Virus record (IMG/VR): IMGVR_UViG_3300025430_000033
Span: 1-53,362 of that record
Length of the DNA stretch: 53,362 bases
Source of the DNA: a virus
Reading direction: 5' to 3' (one strand)
The notes under the pieces are model-generated. The model worked only from the letters and a program-made list of their open reading frames with translations, did no database searches and was not told the origin of the DNA. This document shows positions 2,643 to 50,482 of the stretch, piece by piece (the stretch's first letter is position 1; every line of letters starts with the position of its first letter). A program made the position numbers and the translations under genes.

Positions 2643-2649
2643 ATTATAT

Positions 2650-9937: not shown

Positions 9938-10375
9938 CTAACCGTTGATTTGTTTGCCTTTGATATGGGAGCCGTGGACACGAACTGATATCTGACCGTT
10001 GTAATAATCGTCAGATTCTAATACCCTGCGTGTAAATTGTTCTCGTGCCTCTATGTATGACGTTTCTGCCTTAGATTTACAATAATAAAGTATATCTCGA
10101 CGAAAGTTTTCTTGACCTAACTGCGCAATATCCTTGAGCAATTCATCAGAACTACCATAGTAGTCCTGCCAATCACTATCAATTTTACTGCGGATTTTCT
10201 TTTTTTTCTTAGTGCCGTTTTTTAATTTTACTGTTTTATAAGTAGTTTTAGAAAATTTTGCTAGTTTTTTGCCTATGTACATACGTCCCGTGAGTGTATT
10301 TGTTATAAGATATACAAACCCAACACACTCTTCGGGCAATTCTGTTATTAATTCATTGTTGTAGTACCAGGACAT
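9938..10375 (-). CDS. GIY-YIG domain protein, putative endonuclease
   Basis: A 145-residue protein with the GIY-YIG nuclease signature: GFVYLI at 19-24 and MYIG at 32-35, spaced as in the family, followed by SYIEAREQ (106-113) where a catalytic Glu is expected. A Lys-rich stretch (KNGTKKKKK, 52-60) would suit DNA binding. Family members are phage homing endonucleases (SegA/I-TevI type) and small repair or restriction-like nucleases; here there is only the nuclease domain and no recognisable intron or second DNA-binding module, so a free-standing nuclease is likely. It is the last gene of the gp55 operon, 12 bases after the 89-residue gene. The adjoining 9.5-9.9 kb region has odd composition, which would fit mobile behaviour but does not prove it. 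Confidence 0.8.
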   Translation of the reverse strand: MSWYYNNELITELPEECVGFVYLITNTLTGRMYIGKKLAKFSKTTYKTVKLKNGTKKKKKIRSKIDSDWQDYYGSSDELLKDIAQLGQENFRRDILYYCKSKAETSYIEAREQFTRRVLESDDYYNGQISVRVHGSHIKGKQING

Positions 10376-35500: not shown

Positions 35501-38500
35501 TACTCATAGTTTCACTTTACCATATACACCTGATGTTGGAACAAATATCAATGTTTATTATAAACAAGGATACTCTATAGCACATCCGTCAGACGGATTT
35601 ACACTAAAATGGAATTATGATTTATTTGTAAACAATCCAGTAGTTACTATCTCAACAGATGTAACAACAACTAGTTCTTCAACAGCAACAGCTACTTTAT
35701 TGAATTATTCTACTACTGTAGAATCGACATTAACGGCAATCGGAGGAGTTGTTGGGTCGTCAACAATAATTTTTGAAAATATTTTAAATTTAGTAATTGG
35801 TCAATATGTTTCTGGTGCAGGAGTTCCTTCAAATACTACAGTAACACAAATTATAGACAATGCAGTGGTGCTATCTAATAATTTAACAGTTGATGCTACT
35901 GGAAATTATTCTTTCTACGTATTAAGTACGGTATTAACAGTATCATCGATTACTGGAATTTCAGCGGGGATGGGCGTTATTGGTAATGGATTTTCAGTTC
36001 AGTCAGTAACAGAAGTATTAAGTTCGACAGTAAACGGTGTAACAACTTACTATGTTTATATTAATCAACAACCCGATTTCATTCCTACACTAAACGAAAC
36101 ATTAACATTTGTCACTAATGTTGCTGGAACATTAACTTTAACATTATCTTCTACCGCTAATTTACAAGTTGGTGATATAATTACTAGTGCTATATCAGCT
36201 ATAAGTTACAATATAGTTGTTACAAGTATAGTAAATTCAACTCAAGTAAAATTAAGTAAAATTTTATATAAAACAATTCCTAACGGAACTACAGTTACAT
36301 TTACTAGAACGTTGCATTATACAGTTAGAATTGGCAATAACGGACAAATTACATTGTTTACTCCTATACCAGTTGGAAGTAATATTAATATTACTGGAAG
36401 TTACGATCCTGTGCGTATTGATGCAACTGATTTTGATTCAATATCTTTGACATCTCCTACAAATCCTAATGCTATTATAACAACTCCCATTATGGGAGTA
36501 ACTCCTGCACCAACAGTGACGACAACAGTAAGTGCAAGTGGTGATAGAATATATACAATTAATATTCCAAATACATTCGTTGTACAAACTAACGATACAT
36601 TTATTTTACGTCAAAGCACAAGCGATGGTTCAGAAACACCAACTGAATACGATACAAAATTAGACGGCGGAAATTTAGCTTATACCACAGCAACAGGTAT
36701 TGCCGCAGATGATATTGTGTTAGATGGTGACGGTTTTGTTACACCAACAACAAGCCCAGCATTAGAAGAAGTAGTTCCAGGACAAGTTGTTGATACATTA
36801 GCTTTAAAAGTATATGATAGACCTAATTCTGGCTCTGCTAATATTAAAGTAGACAATTATATTACAGATGGATTTACTAATTCTTTTAAATTAATAACAA
36901 CACCAAGTAGTAACGGGGCAATCATTGTAAGAGTTGGATCTACTATTAAAACTATTAATGTGGATTATCAAATTGATTATAAAAACAATTTACTAACATT
37001 GGCAGCAACTCCATTGACAAACCAAGTAGTAAGTATATTTGTTATAGGATTTTCAGGAACTAATTTATTAGATCTTGATTATTTTGTCGGTGACGGAATA
37101 ACTACAGAATTTGTTACTAAAGCACCTTGGTTAGATGCGTTTACTCCGTTAGTTTATGTCAACGGTACAGCGGTCGATCCAGTGTTTTTCAAAACAGATA
37201 ATACATATTCATTAGATAATGCTATAGGTATTAAATTTCCAGCACCAGTTGCTGGCGGAGCATTAATTAACTATATCATAGTTAGTGGGTCTACACAAAC
37301 ATTCTCAGTAACTAATTCTGAAGTTGTAGCAACTAACGGCGGAACAACATATACACTGAATAACCCAATAGGATCATCATTGCCTAATGAAACTAACATG
37401 ATTGTTAGAGTTAATCAGCAAATTTTAAAAGGTCCTGTTAATGTTTATTATACAATTAAAGATAATATTTTAGCATATATACTTGATCCTAATAGAGCAC
37501 AACCTTATTCTGTTGCAGCAAACAATATAGTTGTATTAGTTGATGGAAAATTATTATCAGCTGGATCAGATTATAGTGTTGATTTGAGTGGATTAACTAT
37601 AAACATTGGTAAGAATATCTATAATAAAAATATTGGAAAAACATTATTAATCAGTATCATAGCTAACGAAGGTTATTTGTATAATCCTAATACTCGACAA
37701 ATAACATTTAGTCAACCATATACTAGTAATGACATTGTTGAAGTTACTAGTTCATACAGACATGACACGCTGGACATTCAACGTACTGCAATCACAGTTA
37801 CATCTGCTACAAATTTAGTGCAAGGATCTGTAGAATATTACTATTATAATTTAATCAGCGGCGGATTAATAACTTTAGATCGTTCAGTAATAAACGAAAA
37901 TTATATTTGGGTTATTAAGAATACTACCTTATTAGTTCCAGGTATTGATTATATTTTATTAGACAATCATACTAGTATTCAATTAACAAATGTTCCTCAA
38001 TTAAATGATCAAATCACCTTAATGACATTTGGTAGTAATGTTCTAGGGCATGGAATTGCATATATGCAATTTAAAGACATGCTTAACAGAACTTCTTATA
38101 CACGTTTAAGTTTAAATAAACAAACTAAACTAGCTACAGATTTACATTGGAATGATACAACCATAACTTTAAAAGATGGTAGCAATTTTCAATCACCAGG
38201 TAATACACCCGGTGTGATTGAAATTCGTGGAGAGCGTATTGAATATTTTGCAAAAACAGGAAATATTCTAAGTAGATTGCGCCGAGGTGTTTTAGGAACA
38301 GGTGTACATACTGTAAATTATGCAGGAACATTTGTTCAAGATATTAGTTCAGGTGAAACTATACCATATTCTGATACAATACAAACAACTACGGTAATAT
38401 CTGACGGTACTGATCTTGTAAATTTAAATTTCACTCCTACGATTGGAAATGCAGAAGATACTATTGGAGTTTTAAATTGGTTTAAAGACTATGGGTACGC

Positions 38501-39683
38501 ATATCAAGGAATGTTTGATGTTGGGTCTACTTATGTTCTTAATGATGTAGTTGTATATAACAATTCTTATTATTACTGTATAACTCCAGTATTAAATGTA
38601 TCTAACAGGGCTTTAATTACAACAACCACCGCGTCTGTTATTACTAGTCAATTAAACAACGTATTAACAGTTATATCAATAATATCAGGCAGTATTGGTA
38701 TAAATCAAGTAATAAAAAATACTACTACAAAAATTGTAAATCAATTGACCGGATCATACGGTGGATTAGGAACATACACAGTTAGCACATCGGTATCTAA
38801 TTTTAATTTGCCAATAAGTTCAATTACGCAAAATAGCGGATTTGTAACATTAAACTTTGTAACACAATTAACAATACCTTTTACAATAGGCACAGGAATT
38901 TATGTTACAGGAATAACACCTAACGGTTATAATGGGTATTATGTTGTTACTAATGCAACAACATCTTCTGTCACTTATGCAAATAAAACAATAGCAACAG
39001 CAACTGGTGGTAATGTATCCACAACAACATTATCAACAGTAGTAATGGGATATGATTATAGTCCTGATAATACCGCATATTGGTCTGCATATTCTACAAC
39101 AATTCCAGTAGGATACGGGCAAAGTGATCAATTAGAAGTTTTTGTAGGCGGATACAACGATACAGCAATTTGGTCATCGGGAGTTAATTATGCTGCAGGC
39201 ACAATTGTCAATGTTGGTAACTACACATATAAATGTATAACTACACATACAAGTGGTACAACATTTATTAAAGATTCAGATAACTGGACATTCTTTATAG
39301 GAAATATTAGATTACAAAAACGTCCTTATAGCGTATTCAATATAAACAAAGCTCCTTACAGCCCAGCCGGTGATATAAGATTTGATGCAGATTTCTCAGT
39401 TAACGGAACTACTAATCAAATTAGATTAACTAATTTGGTAGACGTAGGCACTCAGATTACTGTAATTAAACGTACAGGAATACCTTGGGATAGTAATACA
39501 AGTATTTTAAATGATAATAGTAAAATTGGATCATTTATTAAAGCTAATACTGGTATCTGGTATTCGACTTATAAAAAAATAAGTAATACAGTAACCGCTA
39601 CAAATCAACAAGCAGTTCTAGGAACATTTGATAACGGAACAGCTAGCTTAGATAGCAACACTACAACATTCGATCAAGGATAA
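23559..39683 (+). CDS. Giant 5374-residue baseplate/fibre protein in the gp7 position
   Basis: One uninterrupted frame of 16.1 kb directly after gene 6, where T4 has gene 7. Residues 15-140 (LLPKFYQTSANKKFLQSTID, then EFYSWNPHIDWDKFVNFQNYY) are a baseplate-type start, and YLENIIQDDVSEFKFYQGMI (about 1836) and FKGSFPGSSNLRDLGEIAQY (about 785) look like conserved wedge segments. The rest is a mosaic: six W/Y-G-x-V-x-Y modules resembling CBM5/12 carbohydrate-binding domains (about 1428, 1559, 1740, 2277, 4984, 5204); FG-GAP-like propeller blades (about 2190-2960); three GVSVxGxNGT-type beta modules (about 2511, 2609, 5088); two GYxxAPxIEIVG modules (about 3366, 3728); and a VIEIRGERIEYF module (about 4841-4940). 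It may replace several T4 wedge and fibre proteins (gp7 to gp11). Receptor binding is inferred. Confidence 0.85.
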   Translation: MANSNDANAVNGNKGLSANLLPKFYQTSANKKFLQSTIDQLFQSGSLTKISGLIGRENAKASTGADVYVEAADQVRQNYQLEPGITIKDALGNVTFYKDYIDYINQIGVFGGNTDNHPRLNKEEFYSWNPHIDWDKFVNFQNYYWLPYGPDAITVYGSQQAINSTYTVELQAEGSNNQYVFTPNGFTPNPVLRLYRGQTYTFIINSPGNPFSFMTQRSTGSLNRYKTTGIDNYGVTSGTITFTVPTTAPSIIYYQSETDLNLGGAIEIFNITTDTLIDVEKVILGKKSVTLDNGVTLSNGMKLQFGGTVIPAEYAKGQYYVEGVGSSIKLVLTSILEVVSPYTTEQSIEFDNLPWDSEPFDDAVGYAGSLDYITINRASADHNPWSRYNRWFHKDVINTSAAFNKNTANLDQKTRANRPIIEFNRDIKLYNFGNKAIFDVDLIDTFTTDVFSTIEGSIGYNIDGINLVPGMLVLFTADLDPLVKNKIYRVEYVDVKHLTGGSNQLHLVEVASPLLNEVTLVKQGVAYQSQMFWYDGTTWIQGQQKTKVNQNPLFDVVDNNGISFGNKSVYTGSTFAGTSIFSYAIGTGVADSVLGFPLSYQNVNNIGDIVFNFNLVTDSFQYKKLDFVESSNINVGYLSTLDYAGNIVYVNGWKVSEVTNAQAAVRIYKNSGLTNNFPLDIFDNIKNLNDLVVKIYVNGIRLDPSLWKLVTKPIYYQIRLKTPIASTDVLTIRAFASQPINANGYYEIPLNLQNNPLNDTMKDFTLGEVIDHVTSIVDNLTTFKGSFPGSSNLRDLGEIAQYGTKFIQHSGPLSLGIYHITSEVNNVIKAVEQAKTDYNNFKQNFINVANSLGVDGDTITIVNKVLAKINENKPTVAPYYLSDMVPYGACTITNLTVVDYRIKNYPLTSVFTLEALSNKAVGVYHNNEQLIYGQDYTFSNQGFVIIDPSVALANGDIISTYEYENTDGSFIPATPTKLGMWPAFAPKKYLDTTLVNPVNVIQGHDGSIIAAYNDYRDDLILELEKRIFNNIKVKYNTNIFDIAKIIPSYNRSNDYSLNEFNKVIAPSFYSWIGFVGKDLTTPLNYDRTNSFTYNYSLNAAPNNTPLPGYWRGIYRYILDTDRPNLCPWEMLGFSQQPSWWTTVYGPAPYTSDNLIMWQDITDGMIREPGMPAIYAEEYAKPFLMQHIPVDESGNLISPLNSGLASGTVQPSINNNFVFGDGSPVETAWVRSSYYSFSVIAASLILTPGQTFGILLDRSRITRNIANQLIYTETGLCIRPKDIILPSTFSSTNRVQTAGLVNWIVDLIFNYIFSNNVAGYNSYLNDLSTMTPQLAYRVGSFTNQSQFNLLLESKTPASSGNVFVPTDDYKVFLNKSTTVKKLVYSGVIITKLSTGFEIKGYSKTQPYFNYYFPQGTGSKINVGGISENYSTWTSGQLYVVGSVIQYNGVFYRATTTSTSTDSFDANNFAKLSGLPMTGGATAYLKNKWDKSKVLSVPYGTLFNTIQSVVDFLQGYGEYLKDQGFTFDNYNTLYSSVNNWDTSVNEFLFWTTQNWSTGQEKWSDWVVNQPYTYGTVVRYDGDYYSSLYNLPAVDHFDSTKWQLLPGLSNVGASVISLSPSANGINFTTNLTVVDDITNNFNAYEIFKVDGTPIDLNHLHSYRQGNEITYIPTTLQGIYGASFYLVQNEHIIVINNTTIFNDIIYNPTSGYRRERLKVSGYITTGWYGGLDIPGFIYDAAAVQSWQPWQDYNVGDIVKYGPYYLQADPTSGNLIAGSAVLDHTQWTRLSAKPTDKILPNWTNIATQFTDFYSTEVDSFDNGQQKMAQHLIGYQKRQYLENIIQDDVSEFKFYQGMIREKGTQNVLNKLFNVLSSDAQESLTFYEEWAVRVGRYGATSAFDEIEIVLNQNSFKNNPQGFVLVNKLDSTISPFIIQQTPNDIYVAPLGYDSNPFLPLAATNQFLRSSGYVNSNDVTISIYSLDALKSQPAINLTPGVGYTILTLGTTDFTLAGALSNTVGTSFVATATGNGTGTVKVDITTFKEGSYVWCSFDSFKGWDVYRFTNLHVRFKSASISNNILTITSYDLITFKAGSYIGILQSTLLNGFYQVETVNLNTFTVSTSLASLPSDFTELLIYGLVSQRASSIDNITGMLSSNLKNKDLIWTDDAGTGTPAAWIYNSVFTQSIVNNNIQSTNLQFGRSVAINTQGNIAAVGMTSGQISTYDKVGSAVSWIQRQLVPTPFTAQSSANPISSIATTIAISPDGTYMASGSPAATYASTLYVGAYNVGNTYTVNQIVSYMNNFYKAIVAVPSGAIPSLTSSYWNSISYIPISLAGSNIAVSGLVSLYKKDSNNIYQLIDTIISPSATLSVASTENFGSSLVFDSNNNLYISAPGYDSAKGRVYSLSYASSTPIISYYDSVGSSGALLNLNSTFGIQSGMSVSGIGFATNQTVAAVLTQITFNSVANVPNYILNSLGVAVSLSNITAGLNVSGSQVLPGVTVYSTGTNPIIINVLSVTPSSPSIGFVTINFTQQSAAPFLVGDQISISGVSISGYNGSYTVTDVGKNYVTYANITTGVATANTGSVQSTVNYVLVAGPEDSISTISSVSFIISITGVFPSVPGAGLVTITFNKLPAVPFKTGNQIIVSGVSVAGFNGTFTVVTSTTTSVTFYNNTTTTSATGGTIADPTLQFNVRTISSPSIVLLSAAPDSTPAGPIQFTTISWRYSSLITSPALSSNNAFGNTITVSRDGSTFLASSKNNVYVYKNTGLGSQLLSTIPVTSTSLTVSDTGTYFAIGSFKTITEKTSPSATINVMSNIGQVNLYQYNDITNQYSVIQTITDTASSSNGSNFANKLAFMNDTSTLVIYSQTGSPVTQTTIDAESGFETTFDERATRFISQDISGGKVDIYDNYNTQWVLSESLLNSENVWDGYGIGFAVGSNNVFVSSPYYAINNNLTGQVYVYTKPPKSYSWTPYRTQIPVVDIKKLKKAFLYNKTTSKLLTYLDVIDPIQGKIAGPADEEIKYKSFYDPAIYSYSTNVDTVNVDDGVCWSTNQVGQLWWDLRTSKFYDPYFSDVTYRNNLWNTLAPGASVDIYEWVSSSLLPAAWDALADTVSGIAQGISGTSLYGNNAYSVRKRYDTNTKTFKNTYYYWVKNKSITPDIIGRNISAQAVSSLISSPRNQAYTYLALTGTNSFSLVNAAPYLSDSNVVLVIEYWTVDNIEQNIHSQWKLISNDTIVDIPAVIEQKWIDSLCGTDASGRSVPDTSLAPKLRYGIENRPRQSMFVNRVEALKEFVEQVNISLLANQIVNNYNISSLESYDKEPTLISALYDIVLDTDTELPYANINLFQSPSATPIITNGKVTGIKILSTGRGYSVAPYIEIVGTGKGAIAKAILNSAGSIVSAQVISAGEGYDPNTTTCSIRNYSVLVHSDSQASNSWSIYSYDPVNIMWSRTLTQSYDVRNYWSYADWYASGYNQFSSPDFSVQTFFDLNSITVLKGQLVKILKVNSGGWLLIEKYADSTSTDWTQSYNVVGIQNGTIQLSNSLYRTEFTAVGYDASTFDNGSFDVKASTELRIILNTLKNNIFIGPDLKQTYLDLFFSSIRYAHSEQLYIDWIFKTSFVRATHNVGSLSQPVYYPVDNLSNFQDYIAEVKPYRTKIREYISQYVSTDLGPTAVSDFDLPPVIQNNRSTTINTGVTNGSVTADLPAIQSYPWKFWLDNVGFSITELIIVSGGNNYITQPTVIISAPTGPNPVQATAEAFFTNGVINRVILTSPGSGYLSAPTIEIVGGLSTTGTAASVVAIIGESVVRSSLVGIKFDRISQKNYIVDLSVTDTFTGSGSRLQFPLTWAPDIRVGQSTIYINGIPELRENYTLAIAKSTLKGYTQYSGTITFVSAPPIGATIVVNYIKDISMLNATDRIDFYYNPTSGMIGKELNQLMSGVDYGGNIVGNLGFAPGGGWGVLPYMVDTWSSYDSTYTDYIVQVAANTHSFTLPYTPDVGTNINVYYKQGYSIAHPSDGFTLKWNYDLFVNNPVVTISTDVTTTSSSTATATLLNYSTTVESTLTAIGGVVGSSTIIFENILNLVIGQYVSGAGVPSNTTVTQIIDNAVVLSNNLTVDATGNYSFYVLSTVLTVSSITGISAGMGVIGNGFSVQSVTEVLSSTVNGVTTYYVYINQQPDFIPTLNETLTFVTNVAGTLTLTLSSTANLQVGDIITSAISAISYNIVVTSIVNSTQVKLSKILYKTIPNGTTVTFTRTLHYTVRIGNNGQITLFTPIPVGSNINITGSYDPVRIDATDFDSISLTSPTNPNAIITTPIMGVTPAPTVTTTVSASGDRIYTINIPNTFVVQTNDTFILRQSTSDGSETPTEYDTKLDGGNLAYTTATGIAADDIVLDGDGFVTPTTSPALEEVVPGQVVDTLALKVYDRPNSGSANIKVDNYITDGFTNSFKLITTPSSNGAIIVRVGSTIKTINVDYQIDYKNNLLTLAATPLTNQVVSIFVIGFSGTNLLDLDYFVGDGITTEFVTKAPWLDAFTPLVYVNGTAVDPVFFKTDNTYSLDNAIGIKFPAPVAGGALINYIIVSGSTQTFSVTNSEVVATNGGTTYTLNNPIGSSLPNETNMIVRVNQQILKGPVNVYYTIKDNILAYILDPNRAQPYSVAANNIVVLVDGKLLSAGSDYSVDLSGLTINIGKNIYNKNIGKTLLISIIANEGYLYNPNTRQITFSQPYTSNDIVEVTSSYRHDTLDIQRTAITVTSATNLVQGSVEYYYYNLISGGLITLDRSVINENYIWVIKNTTLLVPGIDYILLDNHTSIQLTNVPQLNDQITLMTFGSNVLGHGIAYMQFKDMLNRTSYTRLSLNKQTKLATDLHWNDTTITLKDGSNFQSPGNTPGVIEIRGERIEYFAKTGNILSRLRRGVLGTGVHTVNYAGTFVQDISSGETIPYSDTIQTTTVISDGTDLVNLNFTPTIGNAEDTIGVLNWFKDYGYAYQGMFDVGSTYVLNDVVVYNNSYYYCITPVLNVSNRALITTTTASVITSQLNNVLTVISIISGSIGINQVIKNTTTKIVNQLTGSYGGLGTYTVSTSVSNFNLPISSITQNSGFVTLNFVTQLTIPFTIGTGIYVTGITPNGYNGYYVVTNATTSSVTYANKTIATATGGNVSTTTLSTVVMGYDYSPDNTAYWSAYSTTIPVGYGQSDQLEVFVGGYNDTAIWSSGVNYAAGTIVNVGNYTYKCITTHTSGTTFIKDSDNWTFFIGNIRLQKRPYSVFNINKAPYSPAGDIRFDADFSVNGTTNQIRLTNLVDVGTQITVIKRTGIPWDSNTSILNDNSKIGSFIKANTGIWYSTYKKISNTVTATNQQAVLGTFDNGTASLDSNTTTFDQG
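29540..29665 (+). other. G+C-rich inserted module inside the giant gene
   Basis: Within residues about 1995-2036 the protein reads a TILTLGTTDFTLAGALSNTV-type module, a unit seen in many environmental phage structural proteins. The line 29581-29640 is 57% G+C by count, while flanking sequence is about one third. This suggests recent acquisition of a domain-sized piece that has not yet adapted to local composition. Confidence 0.7.
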
Positions 39684-39687: not shown

Positions 39688-42495
39688 ATGACGCAACAGA
39701 TAATTAATACAGGAAATGTAGCCAACGATGGTACAGGTGATACTTTACGAACCGCTGGTATAAAAATTAATCAAAATTTTTCTGAACTGTATTCAGATTT
39801 ATTCATCCTTCCTAATCAAGCAAATAATGCTGGTAAAGTATTATCTACTAATGGGCTTGTAGTATCTTGGCAACCGATAGCAGCAACTAACGGGGTTTTG
39901 ACCACTGGGAACTACACTGATCCAAGTTGGATTACTAGTTTGTCCTATAGCAAACTATTAAACGCACCTGCATTATCTATTGTAGCAACAAGCGGAAGTT
40001 ATTTAGATTTAATAAACAAACCTACTATTCCTGCAGCATATATTTTACCTGCATCTTCATCCAACACACTCGGTGGAGTTATTATTGCTACAAATGGAGG
40101 AATTACAAATAATACAGGCGGAATTAACGGATCAATTAGTTTAACACAAGCGAGTACTACACAAATTGGCGGAGTATTAGTTGATGGTACTACAATTACT
40201 ATGAATAGTAGTACTGGAAAAATAAGCGCAGTTCAATACACATTGCCAACAGCAACCGTTGGAACTAGTTTAACTGGAACACTTGGAGGTGTAAAAGTTG
40301 ACGGATCAACAATTACAATTGGTGCAGGTGTCATATCTGCAGTAGCTCCGACTAATATTACAGGAAATTCTGGTACAACAACTAAATTAATTGTACCTGT
40401 TACAATTAACGGTGTAAATTTTGATGGTAGTAGCAATATTACTGTACCGGCATCGGCTAGTACACTTACAGGAACAGCATTAAATTCAACAGTTGTTTCT
40501 TCAAATTTAACTAGTGTTGGTACATTATCATCATTAAATGTCACAGGTAATACTGTAATTGGAGGCAATTTAACAGTAACAGGAACAACTACTACTACAA
40601 ATACTAGTACACTTACTGTAACAAATAAAACAATTATTGTTAGTAGCGGAAGTGCTAGTAGTGCAACAAGCGATGGTAGTGGTCTAGTAGTAAATGGTCC
40701 AACTATTCCGGCAAGTATTTTATATACAGCTGCATCTAGTAGTTTTACTAGTAATATTCCATTTATTGCCAGTACTTTTACAGGAAATTTAGTTGGTAAT
40801 GTAACTGGTAATGTAACTGGTAATGTAACTGGTAATGTAAGCGGGACCGCAAATACTATTACAGGAATATATAGTGGTGCAATAACTAGTAGTCAAATTA
40901 CTACAGGTCTTGGATATACTCCATTGCAAGCAACTAGTCTTAGCGTTACAACTAATAGTGCAAGCGGCAACGGAAGTTTAGCATATAGCGGAGGGATATT
41001 TACATTTACACCGCCTAATTTAAGCAGTTATCTAACTTCAATCACTAGCAATCAAGTAACAACCGCTCTTGGATATACTCCATTGCAAGCAACTAGTCTT
41101 AGTGTTACTACAAACACTGCTAGTGGAAACGGAAGTTTGAGTTATAGTGGTGGAGTATTTTCGTTTACTCCGCCTAATTTAAGCGGTTATTTAACTTCAA
41201 TTAACAGTAGTCAGATAACAACTGCATTAGGATTCACTCCTTACAATGCAACTAATCCTGCAAATTATATTACAAGTAGCAGTCTTAGCGTAGTTACAGC
41301 AAATGCAAGCGGCAATGGAAATTTAACTTATACTAGCGGAACATTTACATTTACTCCGCCAAATTTAAGTAATTATTTAACAGGTATTACAGGAACGCAA
41401 GTAACAACCGCACTAGGATATACTCCGGTACAGTTAACTCAGTTTAGTGTACAAACAAATAGCGCAAATGGATCAGGAAGTTTAAGTTATAGTAACACTA
41501 CTGGTGTATTCACATTTGTGCCTCCAGTTATTCCAGTTATTCCAACTTACACGGTAACTACAGCAAGTGCAAGTGGTAGTGGTTCATTAAATTTAAATGG
41601 AACAACATTTACATTCACTCCACCAGTAATTCCAACTTACACGGTAACTACAGCAAGTGCAAGTGGTAGTGGTTCATTAAGTTTAAGCGGATCAACATTT
41701 ACGTTTACTCCGCCAGTCATTCCAACAATTCCAACATATACAATCACAACTAATAGTGCAAGCGGAAACGGATCTTTAACATTAAATGGAACAGTATTTA
41801 CATATACACCTCCTAGTATTACTCCAACATTTAGTGCTCAGAATGCTAATGTAGTACTAGCAGGTCCGAGTACTGGTGCAAATGCAGTTCCAACATTTAG
41901 ACAATTAGTTTCTGCTGATTTGCCTACAGCAACAACTAGTACAGCGGGTGCAGTAATTATACCAGCAGTATCTACAAGTGGTATTAATAATACAAGTGGT
42001 ACAATTGGAATTGCCACAGCCTCAACTACTCAATTGGGTGGTGTTAAAATTGATGGCTCAACAATTACAATTAATGGTAGCGGTCAACTAGTTGCATCAG
42101 CAAGTGGAGGTGCACTGAGTAGTAGAACAACAGTTTCAGTTACTACTAGTTCTTTAGCTTCTGGAGGATACACAACATCAACCGTGACAGCTGCAAAAGG
42201 ATACGCTCTGTACAGTATTCAAGTTTCAGCAGGGGCATGGGTAACAGTATATACTAGTTCAACAGCTCAAACAAATGATACTAGTAGAAGTATAACAACC
42301 GATCCAACACCAGGAAGCGGAGTAATTGCAGAAGCAATAACAACTACCGCTACTACAACTTATTTTACTCCAGCAGTATTTGGTTTTAATACTGATGGCA
42401 CCATTAGTTCGAACATGTATTTAAAGATTTATAATAATAGCGGATCAACTACAGCTATTACGGTAACAGTGACGTACTTAAAATTAGAAAATTAA
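39688..42495 (+). CDS. Repeat-rich tail fibre protein
   Basis: A 935-residue Thr/Ser/Gly/Asn-rich fibre. The N-terminus IINTGNVANDGTGDTLRTAG (5-24) followed by KINQNFSELY is a recurrent baseplate-attachment start in T4-like phages from water. The shaft is built from repeats: four VTGN units (about 370-385), four copies of a 53-62 residue unit with LGYTPLQATSLSV (about 399-615), then three 30-residue units with TASASGSGSL (about 618-710). The last 130 residues form a different, non-repetitive domain rich in Thr, likely the tip. It starts 4 bases after the giant gene and is followed by the S53 protease gene after a single base. Host-binding role is inferred from form and place. Confidence 0.8.
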   Translation: MTQQIINTGNVANDGTGDTLRTAGIKINQNFSELYSDLFILPNQANNAGKVLSTNGLVVSWQPIAATNGVLTTGNYTDPSWITSLSYSKLLNAPALSIVATSGSYLDLINKPTIPAAYILPASSSNTLGGVIIATNGGITNNTGGINGSISLTQASTTQIGGVLVDGTTITMNSSTGKISAVQYTLPTATVGTSLTGTLGGVKVDGSTITIGAGVISAVAPTNITGNSGTTTKLIVPVTINGVNFDGSSNITVPASASTLTGTALNSTVVSSNLTSVGTLSSLNVTGNTVIGGNLTVTGTTTTTNTSTLTVTNKTIIVSSGSASSATSDGSGLVVNGPTIPASILYTAASSSFTSNIPFIASTFTGNLVGNVTGNVTGNVTGNVSGTANTITGIYSGAITSSQITTGLGYTPLQATSLSVTTNSASGNGSLAYSGGIFTFTPPNLSSYLTSITSNQVTTALGYTPLQATSLSVTTNTASGNGSLSYSGGVFSFTPPNLSGYLTSINSSQITTALGFTPYNATNPANYITSSSLSVVTANASGNGNLTYTSGTFTFTPPNLSNYLTGITGTQVTTALGYTPVQLTQFSVQTNSANGSGSLSYSNTTGVFTFVPPVIPVIPTYTVTTASASGSGSLNLNGTTFTFTPPVIPTYTVTTASASGSGSLSLSGSTFTFTPPVIPTIPTYTITTNSASGNGSLTLNGTVFTYTPPSITPTFSAQNANVVLAGPSTGANAVPTFRQLVSADLPTATTSTAGAVIIPAVSTSGINNTSGTIGIATASTTQLGGVKIDGSTITINGSGQLVASASGGALSSRTTVSVTTSSLASGGYTTSTVTAAKGYALYSIQVSAGAWVTVYTSSTAQTNDTSRSITTDPTPGSGVIAEAITTTATTTYFTPAVFGFNTDGTISSNMYLKIYNNSGSTTAITVTVTYLKLEN
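40795..40842 (+). repeat. Four 12-bp tandem repeats in the fibre gene
   Basis: The unit GGTAATGTAACT repeats four times in a row (the last ends in AGC), encoding repeated Gly-Asn-Val-Thr. The period preserves the frame. Confidence 0.9.
40882..41538 (+). repeat. Four long in-frame repeats of the fibre shaft
   Basis: Units start at 40882, 41041, 41200 and 41386 with spacings of 159, 159 and 186 bases. Each encodes an ITSSQITTALGYTP-like start and an FTFTPPNLSxYLT-like end. Copies one and two share long identical stretches around the GYTPLQATSL codons, suggesting recent duplication. Confidence 0.85.
41539..41680 (+). repeat. 90-bp tandem repeat in the fibre gene
   Basis: The bases 41539-41590 recur identically at 41629-41680, a 90-base period, encoding TYTVTTASASGSGSL twice. 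A diverged third copy follows (TYTITTNSASGNGSL). Confidence 0.85.
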
Positions 42496-42496
42496 T

Positions 42497-44164
42497 ATGG
42501 ACTATACACAAACATTTCAAATTAGCATTTATCTTAACAATGATATCCATGATAATGGAATGACATTAAAAGAGTATGCTGATGCTGTACTAGCCGGGAC
42601 ACATCCGATATTAGGCCATGACGAATTTAATTATCAGTTTGGTACAACTGATGAAAATATGAAACTAGTAAGCGATTGGGCAATTTCAAATAATTTAAAT
42701 ATTATTTCTGCAGAATCTGCTATAGCAACTATAAAAGTCCAAGGAACATTAGGTCAGCTTTGCAATTTATTTTCTGTAACGGTTGAAGAAATAGTGGACG
42801 ACGCCAGAACTTATATAAAAAATACAACGCCAGTTGTAGTACCGACAACAATCGCATCGGCAGTCAGAGATTTATTTGGTTTTGATCAAAGTTTTATTGC
42901 AATAAATCATGCTGTACAGCATGATGGATCTGCTCCTGATTTAGGAAGTTCCTATGGAAGCAGTGCGGTCACTCCTATACAAATGTGTACGGCATACGGA
43001 GCACCTACCGGAGACGGGTATGGAGGCTGTATTGGAATATTTGAATTAACATATAGCGGTAGTCCCGAAGGATGGCAGCAACCTGATGTTACAGCAAGTT
43101 TTAGTCGTATTGGGTTGTCATCTCCTAGCATAACTACAGTACTAGTCGATGGTGTTACTTTAAATTCTACATCAACAGCTGAAAGTATGTTGGATATTTA
43201 TTGTGCAGGTGCAGCAGCACCTAAAGCAAAAATAGTTTATTATATTGGACAAAATGGCGGAAGTTTAACAGACGTTATCAATGCAGCAGTAAATGATACA
43301 ACTAATAATCCGGATGTTTTGAGTATCAGTTGGGGGTTAGGAGATGGTACATCTTTAGACACAGCGTTTCAAGCCTGTGTAGCAAAAGGAATAACAGTTT
43401 TTGTTAGTTCAGGAGACAGTGGCGCTGTTAATCTAAATATGGCAGCAACAGTATGCAGTCAGTACGTAGTGTCGGCTGGCGGAACAAATGTGACACTCAA
43501 CGGGTCAAATCAGCTTACAGCTGAAGTAGGATGGGGAAATTCTGCTGGTACAGGCCAAGGCGGAGGTGGTGGATCAGGTGGTGCAAGTGGCGGCGGAATG
43601 AGTGCTAGTATTGCAGTTCCTAGTTGGCAAACAGGATTAAAATATACAACTACTACAGGTAGTAATACATCAGGTTTAGGCACCGCGACAGCGTTAACTT
43701 ATCGGGGTGTACCCGATATAAGTGCTCCAGCAGATCCATCGACGGGGTATCAATTCTATGTTGGCGGCACTAGTAGTGCTCAAGGATCATTTGTTCAATA
43801 TGGTGGGACTAGTGCGGCTGCTCCATTCTTAGCTGGATTATGGGTAAGATTGATTCGATTATTAGGATATAGGATTCCATTTAATATGGCAACATTTTAT
43901 TCTAATTCAGTTTCTCAATCAGGAGTGATACCTTCATTAAATCTATGTAATGATGTAACTACTGGTAATAATAGAGACGGTTATACTACAGGTTATGTTA
44001 GCACTACAGGATGGGATGCAGTTACTGGATTAGGAAGTCCGGCAGCTAGCAACATTTATCGTTATTTTCACACAGGTTCAACATTTCCTAAGAAAAATTT
44101 TGGATTTAGATCTACAACAGGCCCGGCATATCCACGTATAACTACGGGTGTAAGGGTAGATTAA
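42497..44164 (+). CDS. S53 family (sedolisin/kumamolisin) serine-carboxyl peptidase with pro-domain
   Basis: A 555-residue protein with the full architecture of S53 peptidases, acid-active proteases normally secreted by bacteria, archaea and fungi. Residues 1-135 resemble the pro-kumamolisin activation domain (QFGTTDENMKLVSDWAISNN at 47-66; VPTTIASAVRDLFGFDQSF at 115-133). The catalytic Glu-Asp pair is E229 and D233 (AESMLD), the oxyanion Asp is D307 (SSGDSGA) and the nucleophile is S439 (GGTSAAAP). VPDISAPADPSTGYQ (405-419) and the calcium-site motif GWDAVTGLGSP (505-515) are also family hallmarks. No signal peptide is seen. A Gly-rich loop (355-367) and about 35 extra C-terminal residues are unusual. 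It sits between two fibre-type genes, one base after the upstream stop, so it is probably a virion component acting on the host surface or processing tail proteins. Confidence 0.93.
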   Translation: MDYTQTFQISIYLNNDIHDNGMTLKEYADAVLAGTHPILGHDEFNYQFGTTDENMKLVSDWAISNNLNIISAESAIATIKVQGTLGQLCNLFSVTVEEIVDDARTYIKNTTPVVVPTTIASAVRDLFGFDQSFIAINHAVQHDGSAPDLGSSYGSSAVTPIQMCTAYGAPTGDGYGGCIGIFELTYSGSPEGWQQPDVTASFSRIGLSSPSITTVLVDGVTLNSTSTAESMLDIYCAGAAAPKAKIVYYIGQNGGSLTDVINAAVNDTTNNPDVLSISWGLGDGTSLDTAFQACVAKGITVFVSSGDSGAVNLNMAATVCSQYVVSAGGTNVTLNGSNQLTAEVGWGNSAGTGQGGGGGSGGASGGGMSASIAVPSWQTGLKYTTTTGSNTSGLGTATALTYRGVPDISAPADPSTGYQFYVGGTSSAQGSFVQYGGTSAAAPFLAGLWVRLIRLLGYRIPFNMATFYSNSVSQSGVIPSLNLCNDVTTGNNRDGYTTGYVSTTGWDAVTGLGSPAASNIYRYFHTGSTFPKKNFGFRSTTGPAYPRITTGVRVD

Positions 44165-44212: not shown

Positions 44213-44824
44213 ATGCAGACACAAGATCAAACAGGAATCCATATAGAAGGACATATTAAAATATATGATCCGATTTCTCAAGAAGTTTTTATTAATAAAC
44301 GTAATGCTATTCATTATGAAAATATGAGTATTGCACTTGCACAATCGTTATCTAATAACACAACCGGTGGATATGTTTATCAAATGGCTTTTGGTAATGG
44401 TGGTACAGCTATTGATCCTACTGGAATTATTACATATTTGACTCCAAATAGTACAGGAAGTAATGCAAGTTTATATAATCAAACGTATGCTAAAGTAGTT
44501 GACGGAAATAGTAGTACTAATACAGATCCAACAAGAAATTTTACAGAAACAAGACATACTACTGGATCAAACTACAGTGATATTTTTGTAACTTGTTTAC
44601 TAGATTACGGTGAACCTGCTGGACAAACAGCATTTGATACTACGAATAATAATGCTAGTACATTTACATTTGACGAATTAGGATTAGTAAGTTATAGTAC
44701 TACTGGCCAAAGTTTATTATTAACCCATGTAGTATTTCATCCTGTATTAAAAAGTTTGAATCGATTAATTCAAATTGATTATACAGTAAGAATTCAAAGT
44801 TTAACTGGCCTAGTGTCAGTTTAA
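44213..44824 (+). CDS. Unknown protein of the fibre operon, probable virion component
   Basis: A 203-residue protein starting MQTQDQTGIHIEGHIKIYDP. The sequence is beta-rich, with YQMAFGNGGTAIDPTGIITY (about 56-75) and a C-terminal strand run (LLLTHVVFHPVLKSLNRLIQ, about 168-187). No signal peptide or membrane segment is present. Its own late-type box and a weak AGAGAG ribosome binding site precede it, and the first collar-type fibre follows after 9 bases. A baseplate or fibre-attachment role is likely from context only. Confidence 0.7.
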   Translation: MQTQDQTGIHIEGHIKIYDPISQEVFINKRNAIHYENMSIALAQSLSNNTTGGYVYQMAFGNGGTAIDPTGIITYLTPNSTGSNASLYNQTYAKVVDGNSSTNTDPTRNFTETRHTTGSNYSDIFVTCLLDYGEPAGQTAFDTTNNNASTFTFDELGLVSYSTTGQSLLLTHVVFHPVLKSLNRLIQIDYTVRIQSLTGLVSV

Positions 44825-44833: not shown

Positions 44834-47041
44834 ATGCCATATTCTATTCCTTATACTGATACTACTAATCCAAATAAAGTACCAATTTTAGTTGCTGACG
44901 GTACAATTAATACTACAACTAGTTTAAAATTTGTAGGGCAAGCATACCCTAGTTACGGTGAACCTATTGCAGAAGATCTACTGCACTTATTAGAAAATTT
45001 TGCAGCACCTACCAGTCCATCGAACCCAGTTCAAGGTCAACTGTGGTACGATACCAGCTCTAATATTTTAAAAGTATATGATGGAGTTAATTGGACAACA
45101 GCTGGAAGTTTAAAGAAAAGTGCTACAGCGCCTGCTGTAGCAAATAGTATTGCCGGCGATTTGTGGGCTAATACTAATACTAATCAATTATTTTTATTCA
45201 CAGGTAGCAGTTGGGTTTTAGTTGGTCCTCAATATAGTGCTGGAACACAAACAGGACCGATTGTTGAAACAATAGTTGATACTAGTAATATTACTCATAA
45301 TGTTGTGTCAATGTATGCTAATAATTATAGAATAGTTATTATTAGTAAAGAACAATTTATTCCTAAATCTACAATAACAGGATTTAGCACAATCTATCAA
45401 GGTATAAATTTAAGTACAGTCGATTCTGCAACAACAACAAGTCTTAGTCGCTTTTGGGGAACAGCTAGTTCTGCAGATTCATTATTAATTAGTAATAAAT
45501 CCATAGCTGCATCAAACTTCTTGAGATCAGACACGATCAGCACAACTAATTATTCAGTCAATATTAGAACAGATTCTGGTATAAACATTGGTTCTAATTT
45601 AGGATTAACATTAGGTATAGCCAGTGGATCTGCTGCATTGTATTCTAGTAATACCGGTGGGAATTTTAATATTAAATTAACTAATCTTGCAGGAGCATTG
45701 AATACTATTATTCACGTAGATCCGTCAGGATTGGTAGGAATAGGTACTAACAATGTGTCTCCGGCTTCGGAATTAGATGTAGCTGGTACAGTGACAGTAG
45801 CAACTGGTATTAATATAAAAGGAACAGCAGACGCATCGTATACTGTAGGCACATTATTTACAACATCTTCCGGCAGTATAACAACTCAAGGTGGTGCAGT
45901 TATTGCAATGAGTGCAATAGTTGGTGATGATTTGACAGTTTATGGACAAGCTATTTTGAATAACCTTGATGGAACTAATACTCCAAGTGCAGGTGCAGTA
46001 ATTGTTCCAAATTATTCAACAGATTCTACAGAAGCATCAACATTGAATATTCCACTAGTTACATCTGGACTATATGATATAGGTACAAGCACTAGACCTT
46101 TTAGGAATATGTATGCTAATAATTTTTCAGGAAATTTTTCAGGAACATTTACTGGAATTTTAGAAGGAAGTGCTAGCGGTTCTGCAGCTTTTTTAACTAG
46201 CCCAACAGTTTTTAGTTTGACGGGAGATGTTTCAAGTAATTCTGTTAGTTTTAATGGACAATCGAGCACAGGAACAGCTGTCTTTACAACAACATTAGAT
46301 CCTAATTTTATTGCTAATAAACCAGCAGCAACTGATTCTTATACAACTGATACACTATTAGTTTATAGACCAGGGGTAGGTCTAGTAAGCATGGCGAAAT
46401 CTGTATTGCATAATCATTTGGCTGTAATTCCAATTGGAACAATACTGCCATTTGCAGGAATTTCTATACCATCTGGATATTTATTATGCGACGGATCGGA
46501 GATACTAATCTCTACATATTCTCAATTGTACAGTGTTATTGGATATTCTTATAAAAATCCAAGTTATTTGCTAGGACAAGGCACATTTGCATTACCTGAC
46601 CTACGTGGGCGTTTTCCGTTAGGTGCAGATAACATGAATAATTATAATACGGTTCCTAGTAAAACTGGAGGAACATCTATTACAACAACAACTGATTTAA
46701 ATGGAAATCCTAGTACAGCAGCTCACCGTGTAAATGATGTATCGGCTACTAGCGTTGGTGCGGGAAATACTAGTGCAACTGGGTTTGTAACATTAGCATC
46801 TACGAATTTACCACAGCATACTCATACTTTACAAAGTAATGCCGGTATTCAATACTATGCATCGAGTCCTCCAGGCAGTGCTGCAGATGGACAAGCTGTT
46901 AGTGGTTATGGTATTACAGCCGGTAGTACTGGTGAAGGACTTCCTAACAGTGGTGGAGTAACTGGTGCAACCGGTGTAGCTGTTAATGTAATGAATCCTT
47001 ATCAAACTATCAATTACATAATCTTTACTGGTGCTATATAA
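44834..47041 (+). CDS. Short tail fibre with phage collar domain (gp12-like tip)
   Basis: A 735-residue fibre. Residues 1-150 form an attachment domain shared with the next two genes (LLHLLENFAAPTSPSNPVQG then GQLWYDTSSNILKVYDG). The middle is beta-strand shaft. Residues about 530-605 are a phage tail collar domain: PIGTILPFAGISIPSGYLLC, then ALPDLRGRFPLGADNMNN. LPQHTHTLQSN follows near 655-665; the His-x-His pattern resembles the metal-binding motif at the tip of T4 gp12 and gp37. The C-terminus (MNPYQTINYIIFTGAI) is the usual end of collar fibres. AGGAG precedes the ATG. Its stop shares one base with the next start. Confidence 0.88.
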   Translation: MPYSIPYTDTTNPNKVPILVADGTINTTTSLKFVGQAYPSYGEPIAEDLLHLLENFAAPTSPSNPVQGQLWYDTSSNILKVYDGVNWTTAGSLKKSATAPAVANSIAGDLWANTNTNQLFLFTGSSWVLVGPQYSAGTQTGPIVETIVDTSNITHNVVSMYANNYRIVIISKEQFIPKSTITGFSTIYQGINLSTVDSATTTSLSRFWGTASSADSLLISNKSIAASNFLRSDTISTTNYSVNIRTDSGINIGSNLGLTLGIASGSAALYSSNTGGNFNIKLTNLAGALNTIIHVDPSGLVGIGTNNVSPASELDVAGTVTVATGINIKGTADASYTVGTLFTTSSGSITTQGGAVIAMSAIVGDDLTVYGQAILNNLDGTNTPSAGAVIVPNYSTDSTEASTLNIPLVTSGLYDIGTSTRPFRNMYANNFSGNFSGTFTGILEGSASGSAAFLTSPTVFSLTGDVSSNSVSFNGQSSTGTAVFTTTLDPNFIANKPAATDSYTTDTLLVYRPGVGLVSMAKSVLHNHLAVIPIGTILPFAGISIPSGYLLCDGSEILISTYSQLYSVIGYSYKNPSYLLGQGTFALPDLRGRFPLGADNMNNYNTVPSKTGGTSITTTTDLNGNPSTAAHRVNDVSATSVGAGNTSATGFVTLASTNLPQHTHTLQSNAGIQYYASSPPGSAADGQAVSGYGITAGSTGEGLPNSGGVTGATGVAVNVMNPYQTINYIIFTGAI

Positions 47042-48939
47042 TGAGCTATACTATCAAACTTACCAATGGAAATACGTTAACAACTATTAATGATGGAACT
47101 GTTAACCAAACATCTACTGATTTAACTTTAATCGGTAAAAATACTACTAGTTACGGTGCATTTTTTAATGATAATTTTGTTTGGTTATTAGAAAATTTTG
47201 CCAGCACTAGTCAGCCGAACTATCCATTAATTGGGCAACTATGGTACGACACAAATGAAAATCGTTTAAAAGTATATAACGGAAATAATTTTACTACAAC
47301 TAGCGGAACAATTGTATCATCGGTAGTACCTAGTAGTATCAGCAGTGGTGATTTGTGGATTAATAATTCAACAGGCCAGTTATATTTTAATGACGGATTG
47401 AACACTATTTTAACAGGTCCTGCATATACTACTACTCAAGGAACTAGCGGATTTGTAGTAGAGGATGTTATTGATATTGCCGGTGTAACCCATACAGTTG
47501 TAGTTTTATATGTTGCTCGTACTATTATTGGAATTTTTAGTAAAGATACATTTACTCCGGCAACAGCTATTCCAGGATTTACAAGTTCTGCACAAATTAC
47601 AGCTAGCCAATCTGGAAATATTTTAACGGTTACGGCAATATCTAACGGTAGTTTAAGTGTAGGACAGACTATTTCAGGTATTGGAGTAGTTCCAGGAACT
47701 ACAATTACTAGTCAGCTTACGGGCAGTACAGGTAGTACAGGTACTTATACACTAAGTAATGCGTCAACTGTAGCATCGACTACAATGACAGCATCTAGTA
47801 ATACTGTTAATATTGGTTTTAATACTGGAACATATCCGGGAGTATTGTTTAATGCTGTGGCAACACAGGCACAATCGCTACTAGCAGCTGATGGAAGTTT
47901 AAAAACAGCTTCTAGTTTCCTATCAACAATATCAAATTCCACTACATCTGGACAAATTAGTATTCAAAATAACACACCTTTGATACTAGGTACCGGATCT
48001 AATATTAAATTTAATATTGACAATAATAGTAATACTTTCCAGATTAACTCTAATACTACAAATTTAAATTTTGGTATTAATTTACAAACTGGTGGTACAT
48101 TACAAAATAGTTTATATATAAATGCACAAAATCAATTTGTGGGAATTTATACATCAAGCCCAACTGCAACATTAGACGTTAATGGAAATACCGTAATTAG
48201 AGGTAATTTAACAGTTCAAGGTAACACTGAAACTATTAATAGTACTACAATTAATATTGCTGATAAAAATATTACACTTGGTGCTACATCGGTACCGACA
48301 GATATCACAGCTAGCGGCGGTGGAATAACATTATCTGGCACAACTACTAAATTTATAGATTGGGCAGCTACTGCTAGTTCAAGTTCTACAGCAAATAGCG
48401 GTTATTGGAATTTATCGGATTTCGTTAATATTTCTACTTCCAATGGCGGTGCCGGATATTATATTAATGGCACTAGCGTATTGAGTACAACAGCACTGGG
48501 CACTGGCATTACATCGGCTCCTGGGCTAACTAGTATTGGAGCATTAACAGGACTGCAAGCCGCGTATTTAAATATTGCAAATAGTACAGTATCGTATGTA
48601 AACTCTGGATCAGCTAATGGTACAATATATTTGGTTGCTAAGGGATCTGGCACTGTCGATGTTGGTAGTACTAGGATTACAAATGTATCAACACCTTCCA
48701 ACGCCACCGATGCATCTAACAAAAGCTATGTAGATACAGCAGTATCTAGTATAAATTTAGGGTTAAGTTTGACTACAACAGGGTTAACTACAGCGCAAAT
48801 TGCTACAAATTTAATTAATAAGATTTTTCCAGTATCAGAGCACCAAAACGGCACAATACTTAGAATACAATGTAGCGATAGTACTATAAAACAGTACCAA
48901 CTATTGGGCGGAGTTTGGACTTATCAAACTAATTTATAA
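47041..48939 (+). CDS. Tail fibre paralog 2
   Basis: A 632-residue fibre whose first 150 residues match those of the genes before and after it (FVWLLENFASTSQPNYPLIG, GQLWYDTNENRLKVYNG). Residues about 183-250 hold a module (NILTVTAISNGSLSVGQTIS... TGTYTLSN) that also occurs near the end of the giant protein. Residues 360-460 contain PTATLDVNGNTVIRGNLTVQ, typical of fibre shafts. The C-terminal part has TPSNATDASNKSYVDTAV (about 560-577), a common transition to the fibre head. There is no collar domain, so the tip differs from paralog 1. Confidence 0.82.
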   Translation: MSYTIKLTNGNTLTTINDGTVNQTSTDLTLIGKNTTSYGAFFNDNFVWLLENFASTSQPNYPLIGQLWYDTNENRLKVYNGNNFTTTSGTIVSSVVPSSISSGDLWINNSTGQLYFNDGLNTILTGPAYTTTQGTSGFVVEDVIDIAGVTHTVVVLYVARTIIGIFSKDTFTPATAIPGFTSSAQITASQSGNILTVTAISNGSLSVGQTISGIGVVPGTTITSQLTGSTGSTGTYTLSNASTVASTTMTASSNTVNIGFNTGTYPGVLFNAVATQAQSLLAADGSLKTASSFLSTISNSTTSGQISIQNNTPLILGTGSNIKFNIDNNSNTFQINSNTTNLNFGINLQTGGTLQNSLYINAQNQFVGIYTSSPTATLDVNGNTVIRGNLTVQGNTETINSTTINIADKNITLGATSVPTDITASGGGITLSGTTTKFIDWAATASSSSTANSGYWNLSDFVNISTSNGGAGYYINGTSVLSTTALGTGITSAPGLTSIGALTGLQAAYLNIANSTVSYVNSGSANGTIYLVAKGSGTVDVGSTRITNVSTPSNATDASNKSYVDTAVSSINLGLSLTTTGLTTAQIATNLINKIFPVSEHQNGTILRIQCSDSTIKQYQLLGGVWTYQTNL

Positions 48940-48949
48940 GTTAAAATAG

Positions 48950-48957
48950 CATAAATA
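48950..48957 (+). promoter_or_regulatory. Late promoter box CATAAATA
   Basis: CATAAATA matches seven of eight late-consensus positions and lies 22 bases before the ATG at 48980, with AAGGA at 48966-48970 as the ribosome binding site. Confidence 0.6.
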
Positions 48958-48979
48958 CTAGGAATAAGGAACGAGCGAG

Positions 48980-50482
48980 ATGTCATATACGATTAATCAC
49001 TACAATGGTACACTATTAACTACAGTTGCAGACGGTACTGTTGATACGTCTACGGATCTTACCTTAATTGGTAAGAATTATGCTGGATACGGACAGTCAC
49101 AAAACGATAATTTTGTATGGCTACTAGAAAATTTTGCAAATACAACACAACCGCCTAACCCGCTAAAAGGTCAAATTTGGTTTGATAGTGGAAATAGTAA
49201 ATTAAAATTCTGGGATGGCAGTAAATTTAGAACAACCGGCGGTGCCGAAGTAGGATCAGTACAGCCGAGCGGATTAACTCAAGGCGATTTCTGGTTTGAT
49301 ACAGCAACTAATCAGTTGTTTGCGTATACTGGGTCAACATTCCAACTAATTGGACCACAGGGTGTTGCTGGCCAAGGTTTAACACAGATGCAATCTATCA
49401 GTGTTAAAGATTTAGAAAACGGAGCAAACCACGCTGTTATACAAGCTGTTAATAATGGAAATGTAGTTTTTATTATTAGTTCAGATGGAGCATTTACATT
49501 AGACCCTTCGGTTAATGCTATTACAGGATTTGATAAGATTCAACAAGGTGTTACACTAGCTTATACAAAAAATGCCGATAACGGTGTTACAGAAAATAAT
49601 GTTAACTACAGATTTTGGGGCACAGCAACAAACTCAGATCGTTTAGGTGGTATACCTGCTTCTAATTTTTTACAAGCTGGTAATGCAACATTTTCACAAA
49701 CTGTAAATTTTGCTGATGTAGGATATACAGTAGGTAGTCCAGTTAAATTACAGGTATTTAATAATTCGAATACTAGCTATCCAACTATTCAAAACATTTA
49801 TAATGATACAATTATTTTCCAAACATCTGTATCATCGATTACAAAAACTCCAATGACGTTAAAGGGTACCGATGTACTTCCAGGTGCAACTTTAACTAGT
49901 AATTTAGGAAGTTCTAGCTTGGTATGGAATAATGTTTATGCTACTAATTTTGTAGGTACTGCTACAAATGCAAATTATTTAAATTTAGGCGGACAGTTTG
50001 TAAGTGCAACTACAGCAAGTTCAGCAACTAGTATTGTTGCTAGAGATAGCAATCAAAATATATATGCTAATACATTCTATGGAACAGCAACAAGTGCCAA
50101 TTATGCCGATTTAGCAGAAAAATATCTTCCTCCTCCAAACACAACTTTAGATGAAGGTACTGTTGTAAAAATAGGCGGTCCTGCAGAAATTTGTACAGCT
50201 ACATATGGTGATAAAGCAATTGGTGCAATTAGTACTAACCCTGCTTTTAAAATGAATGAAAGTTTAAAAAATGGCGTGTATGTTGCGTTAAAAGGCCGCG
50301 TTCCAGTTAAAGTAATTGGCGGATGCTCAAAAGGAGATACGATGGCTCCATATGGCGACGGCTTGGCAGCTAGTATAAATGTCATGTTTAGTCCTGACGA
50401 TAATCAGCCAATTTGCTTTGCTGTAGCTCTTGCAGATTGCACAAGTACAGATATCACTTTAGTAGAATGTGTAATTTTGTAA
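48980..50482 (+). CDS. Tail fibre paralog 3 with a distinct C-terminal domain
   Basis: A 500-residue fibre sharing the attachment domain of the two preceding genes (FVWLLENFANTTQPPNPLKG, GQIWFDSGNSKLKFWDG). The shaft is short. From about residue 373 a separate globular domain begins with YADLAEKYLPPPNTTLDEGT, followed by AIGAISTNPAFKMN and GVYVALKGRVPVKVIGGCSK. This pattern resembles the C-terminal domain found in many phage fibres and related to the peptidase G2/endosialidase-type autocleaving chaperones; I cannot confirm an active site. If so, the end might be cut off after folding. It has its own late-type box. Confidence 0.82.
   Translation: MSYTINHYNGTLLTTVADGTVDTSTDLTLIGKNYAGYGQSQNDNFVWLLENFANTTQPPNPLKGQIWFDSGNSKLKFWDGSKFRTTGGAEVGSVQPSGLTQGDFWFDTATNQLFAYTGSTFQLIGPQGVAGQGLTQMQSISVKDLENGANHAVIQAVNNGNVVFIISSDGAFTLDPSVNAITGFDKIQQGVTLAYTKNADNGVTENNVNYRFWGTATNSDRLGGIPASNFLQAGNATFSQTVNFADVGYTVGSPVKLQVFNNSNTSYPTIQNIYNDTIIFQTSVSSITKTPMTLKGTDVLPGATLTSNLGSSSLVWNNVYATNFVGTATNANYLNLGGQFVSATTASSATSIVARDSNQNIYANTFYGTATSANYADLAEKYLPPPNTTLDEGTVVKIGGPAEICTATYGDKAIGAISTNPAFKMNESLKNGVYVALKGRVPVKVIGGCSKGDTMAPYGDGLAASINVMFSPDDNQPICFAVALADCTSTDITLVECVIL

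Follow-up and report, generated by a model that had tools for sequence, protein, structure and literature searches.

Proteases of the S53 family are typically secreted, and to our knowledge those characterised to date are acid-active. Here, we describe an S53 protease gene that lies behind a tail-fibre gene in a phage, at positions 42497 to 44164 of IMG/VR record IMGVR_UViG_3300025430_000033. This 53,362-base stretch (the window) comes from a large T4-like myovirus and carries its tail and baseplate genes. Kumamolisin and kumamolisin-As (MEROPS S53, clan SB) share with the window protein the domain order, the E-D-D-S catalytic set, and the calcium site; identity in the fold alignment is 27 to 30%, and the TM-score to the solved structure is about 0.8. 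Unlike kumamolisin, the phage protein has a conserved C-terminal tail, predicted to be disordered, has a fibre gene as its partner, and belongs to a separate clade. The S8 protease of cyanomyoviruses (S-H38 YP_010670457) resembles the window protein in its partner, a fibre C-terminal domain (FCTD), and in adjacency to it, tail motif, and fold clan, but it has Asp-His-Ser instead of Glu-Asp-Ser and a different propeptide. The giant-virus bins Barrevirus and Homavirus encode the S53 fold and gave the best matches in a viral structure library, but they are eukaryotic large DNA viruses; S53 was present in that library only in giant-virus bins, and no phage S53 protein was among the matches. Tailspike and fibre depolymerases are analogous, as enzymes fixed to the adsorption apparatus that clear a surface layer, but they cut polysaccharide and are not separate clan SB proteases.

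We found that the protease gene is half of a recurring two-gene module, in which a gene for a fibre ending in the FCTD is followed by a clan SB protease with a C-terminal tail. Judged by its sequence, the window protein is a member: it is a clan SB protease encoded directly 3' of an FCTD fibre, and it carries the [ST]GxxYPR tail. The best explanation, which we regard as probable, is a fibre-tethered virion protease that cuts host surface protein during adsorption. An earlier note on this DNA had suggested searching for phage S53 genes flanked by fibre genes. As a test that does not depend on the protease, we scanned IMG/VR with the FCTD alone, took the best 80 contigs, and classified the next gene. 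A clan SB protease came next in 72 of these 80 contigs (45 S8 and 27 S53, assigned by profile scores and Pfam, with L293 as S8). When the next proteins were clustered at 70% identity, 45 of 50 clusters were proteases (29 S8 and 16 S53), and at 50% identity 14 of 19 were; the sequences counted are related, and the counts are not independent events. Phage S53 genes lie nearly all directly behind an FCTD-ending gene, nearly always with a 1-nucleotide gap, across differing loci. Cultured cyanomyoviruses have the S8 form of the pair. In S-H38, ACG-2014h, ACG-2014e, and S-CAM1, annotation and sequence place an S8 protease after the FCTD, and matching coordinates do so in S-CREM1, S-RSM4, S-WAM2, and S-CAM4. 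The S-H38 protein directly behind the fibre, YP_010670457, is annotated as a subtilisin-like serine protease. Three contigs from the FCTD scan (L281, L284, and L286) have the next structural gene directly after the FCTD and no protease, as do L175 and L176.

The features of the window locus are as follows.

23559 to 39683, + strand: giant virion structural gene, 5374 amino acids, left edge of the slot
39688 to 42495, + strand: fibre gene, 935 amino acids, matching T4_gp9_10_N (Pfam, 1.5e-8, residues 4 to 39) and phrog_15343 (6e-34)
41920 to 42492, + strand: FCTD, about residues 745 to 935 of the fibre, phrog_15343, pairs with the protease gene
42493 to 42499, + strand: TAA-T-ATG junction, that is, fibre stop, one base, and protease start
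42497 to 44164, + strand: S53 (kumamolisin-type) protease precursor, 555 amino acids, ATG start
42497 to 42877, + strand: pro-kumamolisin activation domain, about residues 1 to 127, PF09286, modelled with high confidence
42878 to 42964, + strand: variable linker, about residues 128 to 156, gapped in the family alignment and of lower model confidence
42965 to 44071, + strand: S53 catalytic domain, about residues 157 to 525, with E229, D233, D307, and S439, and with D486 and D507
44072 to 44161, + strand: C-terminal tail TGSTFPKKNFGFRSTTGPAYPRITTGVRVD, predicted to be disordered, candidate fibre-docking peptide
44213 to 44824, + strand: gene for a 203-amino-acid protein (203-aa gene), phrog_11259, bounding the variable fibre slot on the right

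By sequence and model, the open reading frame (ORF) at 42497 to 44164 is a complete S53 kumamolisin-type precursor, with the catalytic glutamate, aspartates, and serine, the clan SB fold, and the pro-domain. In Pfam, Pro-kuma_activ (PF09286) matched residues 5 to 124 at 5.5e-10, above its cutoff. We found that phmmer matched residues 39 to 519 to pro-kumamolisin (1t1e) at 2.3e-44, and in this alignment E229, D233, D307, and S439 fall on the ELDI, GDSG, and GTSA motifs of kumamolisin. An AlphaFold2 model built from a 43-sequence alignment had a predicted local distance difference test score (pLDDT) of 85.9 and a predicted TM-score of 0.88; with only a five-sequence alignment, the pLDDT was 38. 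Low confidence was confined to the last 28 residues and to short loops; around residues 140 to 160 confidence was lower. The first Foldseek match of the model was 1t1e (E value, 1e-39; TM-scores, 0.77 and 0.80), followed by kumamolisin-As, TPP1, and sedolisin. All of the top 17 PDB matches were S53 enzymes, and S8 enzymes came after these at much weaker E values. The window protein did not match PF00082 (S8 subtilase) in Pfam, and membership in S8 was ruled out.

We found that E229, D233, D307, and S439 are unchanged in all 43 aligned homologues (42 phage-type and one cellular-type, L073), down to about 32% identity. The calcium-site residues D486 and D507 are likewise unchanged in 43 of 43, and metal binding is predicted. 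The gene is under purifying selection: the ratio of nonsynonymous to synonymous substitution was 0.05 to 0.20 between relatives, with synonymous differences approaching saturation where the pairs were more distant. The pro-domain carries a phage-conserved motif, D-x-H-[DE]-N-G-M, and its cleavage would be expected within the linker at about residues 128 to 156. The TAA-T-ATG junction suggests that translation of the fibre and the protease is coupled. Thus, what the earlier note had read from the DNA stood in most respects: a complete S53 protease with a pro-domain, an intact catalytic set, a calcium-site motif, and a start one base after a fibre gene. It was right about the fibre gene upstream, to which we add that this fibre begins with a short T4 gp9/10-type N terminus. 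It had also put the gene before the collar fibres; the 203-aa phrog_11259 protein lies between. Its remark that the spike lacks a lysozyme holds at the Pfam level, at which the spike gene (17924 to 19567) weakly matched gp5 OB and trimerisation domains and no lysozyme domain was found.

The tail links the S53 proteases to the S8 proteases. Phage S53 proteins reach about 30 residues past the end of kumamolisin with the pattern TGxTFPKxNYGFRPxTGxxYPRxTTGxR, which is kept at about 35% overall identity and contains two [ST]GxxYPR-like repeats; in the window protein, the stretch of interest is TGSTFPKKNFGFRSTTGPAYPR. This tail was absent from the cellular S53 sequences that we compared. The S8 proteases in the slot end alike, for example with SGTVNPKVNYLARPSSGTVYPRIRMR in L189, and the common motif is TGxxFPKxNYGxRPxTGxxYPR. 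We searched 1,565 distinct phage ORFs with a profile made from 26 S53 tails only. Seven S8 proteases headed the non-S53 matches, with E values of 1.6e-7, 3.5e-6, 9e-5, 2e-4, 0.007, 0.007, and 0.05 (L199 and L201 are near-copies), and the best of the other matches had an E value of 0.17. Among the phage ORFs listed, only such proteases carry the C-terminal [ST]GxxYPR-type motif; outside proteases, the profile gave only weak chance matches in phage ORFs (E values of at least 0.17). Across cellular loci, 4 of the 2,143 frames examined matched a regular expression for the tail at the C terminus. Tail and FCTD also occur together. Among 54 distinct S53 proteins with enough flanking sequence, 48 had both, 2 had the tail only, 4 had neither (L073, which is cellular-like, L033, L065, and L067), and none had the FCTD only. 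In L054, a collagen-like GPTGPQ stretch separates the tail from the catalytic domain.

We looked upstream of homologues of the 203-aa gene. An S53 gene was present in 15 of 80 loci and absent in 61, and the contig ended in 4. In many of the 61 S53-free loci the giant gene comes immediately before the 203-aa gene; some have a fibre alone, and several have an FCTD with an S8 subtilase behind it. In cultured Phosso, the giant gene lies immediately before the homologue of the 203-aa gene, and in Atu_ph07 two small genes lie between. The slot is facultative. In the window, S53 occupies a baseplate slot, and L001 to L004 preserve this arrangement, with the giant virion gene first, then the fibre, S53, the 203-aa gene, and the collar fibres; S53 lies in a different tail-fibre locus in L005, L014, and L025 and in another one again in L026. 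In L005, a Nol-like carbamoyltransferase gene (2552 to 4342) lies close to the fibre-protease cassette. Since the slot also holds S8 proteases with the same tail, the role would be that of a fibre-tethered clan SB protease, with nothing special to S53. The exchange of S8 and S53 keeps the tail, which strongly suggests that selection acts on proteolysis itself. The earlier suspicion of a fibre-linked virion enzyme is well supported, and by much more than gene position: by the pairing, the common tail, and fusions to immunoglobulin (Ig) repeats. In L170, a tail-less LamG/concanavalin-type protein (6261 to 6944) replaces the protease after the FCTD fibre in the same slot.

Two natural fusions, in L065 (7920 to 12575) and L067 (7953 to 12245), join S53 to Ig repeats of cadherin-like or He_PIG type and to a C-terminal domain. 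We found this C-terminal domain within separate genes of related phages (L026, L060, L068, and L074). The 25.9-kb contig L033 encodes a fusion-type S53 of 860 amino acids and has, at its end, a second FCTD and the start of another S53. An S53 subtype of about 410 amino acids lacks the pro-domain (L074, 7911 to 9134; L075, 7911 to 9140; L081, 7911 to 9146; and L260, L261, L263, L267, and L273), and the three aligned members, L074, L075, and L081, keep the catalytic residues. Directly 3' of the prodomain-less S53, a protein with YHYH (PF14240) and He_PIG domains is encoded at 9168 to 13019 in L074 and 6888 to 10739 in L080.

From this genetic evidence, we infer that the protease is incorporated into the virion and acts as follows. 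Gene coupling would allow the fibre and the protease zymogen to be made together. The disordered tail would then dock the protease on the FCTD, giving a tethered protease at the virion baseplate or fibre. The pro-domain would hold the enzyme inactive in the cell and be removed after release, whether in cell-free or acidic water or on contact. The mature enzyme would cut proteinaceous material on the host surface (an S-layer, a sheath, or a protein of the outer membrane or the secreted matrix), which would let the tail reach a secondary receptor. S53 and S8 are two interchangeable clan SB catalytic domains for one slot. These data suggest that such phages commonly enter with the help of a protein-cutting enzyme at the fibre, a part of entry that has been overlooked. 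The broader proposition is evenly balanced: large T4-like phages of aquatic habitats would widely share a tail-fibre system built on a short C-terminal tag, which fastens an exchangeable protease (S8 in ocean cyanophages and the acid-type S53 in lake phages) to a conserved tip domain and so equips the virion for a dedicated proteolytic entry step. One S53 contig comes from the hypolimnion of Trout Bog, a humic bog lake (IMG 3300000553), and adaptation of the S53 form to acid lakes is a lead.

Several points weigh against a fibre-tethered enzyme that digests host surface protein. The evidence is genetic, and we found no proteomics or structure that places the S53 protein in virions. Papers on two S8-domain cyanophages (PMC9964418 and PMC9602691) report virion proteins, but their text does not name the protease. 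The FCTD had no PDB match with a single sequence or a profile, and because it has no solved relative, docking of the tail on the FCTD is argued from co-occurrence. The two tail-only proteases, in L031 and L050, are on contigs with no FCTD, though these contigs are fragments. The prodomain-less subtype retains the tail and the FCTD partner, and some members would therefore do without a classical zymogen step.

The main rival is that the enzyme matures the fibre. It would bind its partner and trim the fibre or its own linker at assembly, as intramolecular chaperone domains mature tailspikes, and would need no host action. The strict pairing with a single fibre domain and the probable translational coupling are consistent with this, and the enzyme would be drawn to the fibre by its tail and held inactive by its pro-domain until bound. 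However, the protease-free FCTD contigs indicate that the FCTD can do without the enzyme in cis. In L065 and L067, the protease is within an Ig-repeat chain, with no adjoining FCTD, and the acid activity of characterised S53 enzymes fits poorly with assembly in the cytoplasm. We consider fibre maturation unlikely. Somewhat less likely still is a public-good protease, expressed late and freed at lysis, that digests biofilm matrix, host debris, or receptor-bearing fragments and whose link to fibres reflects only late-operon placement. Secretion is typical of the family, and we found no hydrophobic signal stretch at the N terminus of the window protein, so export would occur by lysis. This reading leaves unexplained the strict adjacency to the FCTD across loci, the tail common to two protease families, and the Ig-repeat fusions.

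A non-proteolytic role, with the clan SB fold used at the fibre tip for binding or for structure, is very improbable. Enzyme folds recruited by tail-fibre genes can serve in binding, but here the catalytic residues and calcium aspartates are invariant, and the slot also holds a second family, which has a catalytic GTS motif of its own.

We found that relatives of the gene are encoded by at least 99 IMG/VR contigs (two preceding scans had given 6 and 28), the largest of 354,680 bases, with 31 to 100% identity among the matches listed. A tree was built with 40 cellular S53 sequences, every second one of the 80 best kumamolisin-type matches; these came from Burkholderiales, Acidobacteria, Chloroflexi, Bacillota, and others, and other S53 subtypes lie outside this sample. 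In this tree, a branch of length 0.94, with a Shimodaira-Hasegawa-like approximate likelihood ratio test support of 100, separated 42 of 43 viral-contig sequences from the cellular ones. A scan of cellular genome contigs with phage-specific S53 patterns found none, and a second scan reached cellular S53. S53 is common in Burkholderiales, Acidobacteria, and Chloroflexi and L073 alone of the 43 groups with cellular sequences, but the synteny with T4-like structural genes and the tree refute contamination or recent capture of a host gene for the window gene, and the earlier worry that homologues might be confined to cellular genomes is excluded.

We found no S53 in the 50,697 phage records of INPHARED (tblastn, 1e-3) and thus no cultured phage with S53. 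Our literature search, whose coverage did not extend to subscription papers, returned no publication on phage sedolisins or S53 enzymes and none on the fibre-protease module. S53 in phage fibres thus appears undescribed so far. Cultured phages already have annotated genes for the S8 form, and the S53 variant is the new part. How phages get through polysaccharide layers has been studied well, whereas little is understood of how they get through protein layers. If the proposed role is true, the module would be a proteolytic counterpart of the polysaccharide depolymerases. The conserved gene pair makes fibre-borne protein digestion a testable general step in large aquatic phages; the short tag is a candidate fibre-docking peptide, and the cultured cyanophages S-H38 and S-CREM1 are ready test systems. 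The module may also account for genes now labelled hypothetical, "proximal tail fibre," or "baseplate wedge."

Elsewhere in the window, we found genes for a portal, a prohead protease, a late sigma factor, baseplate hub and wedge proteins, and a gp5-type spike. The nearest cultured relatives of the gp6-type wedge protein are in the jumbo phages Phosso, Atu_ph07, and SCTP-2. Three tandem fibre genes at 44834 to 50482 have about 180 N-terminal residues in common, with 37 to 46% identity, which suggests duplication with divergent tips. A homing-endonuclease-like ORF (9938 to 10375) lies between the baseplate hub gene and an sbcC-like gene.
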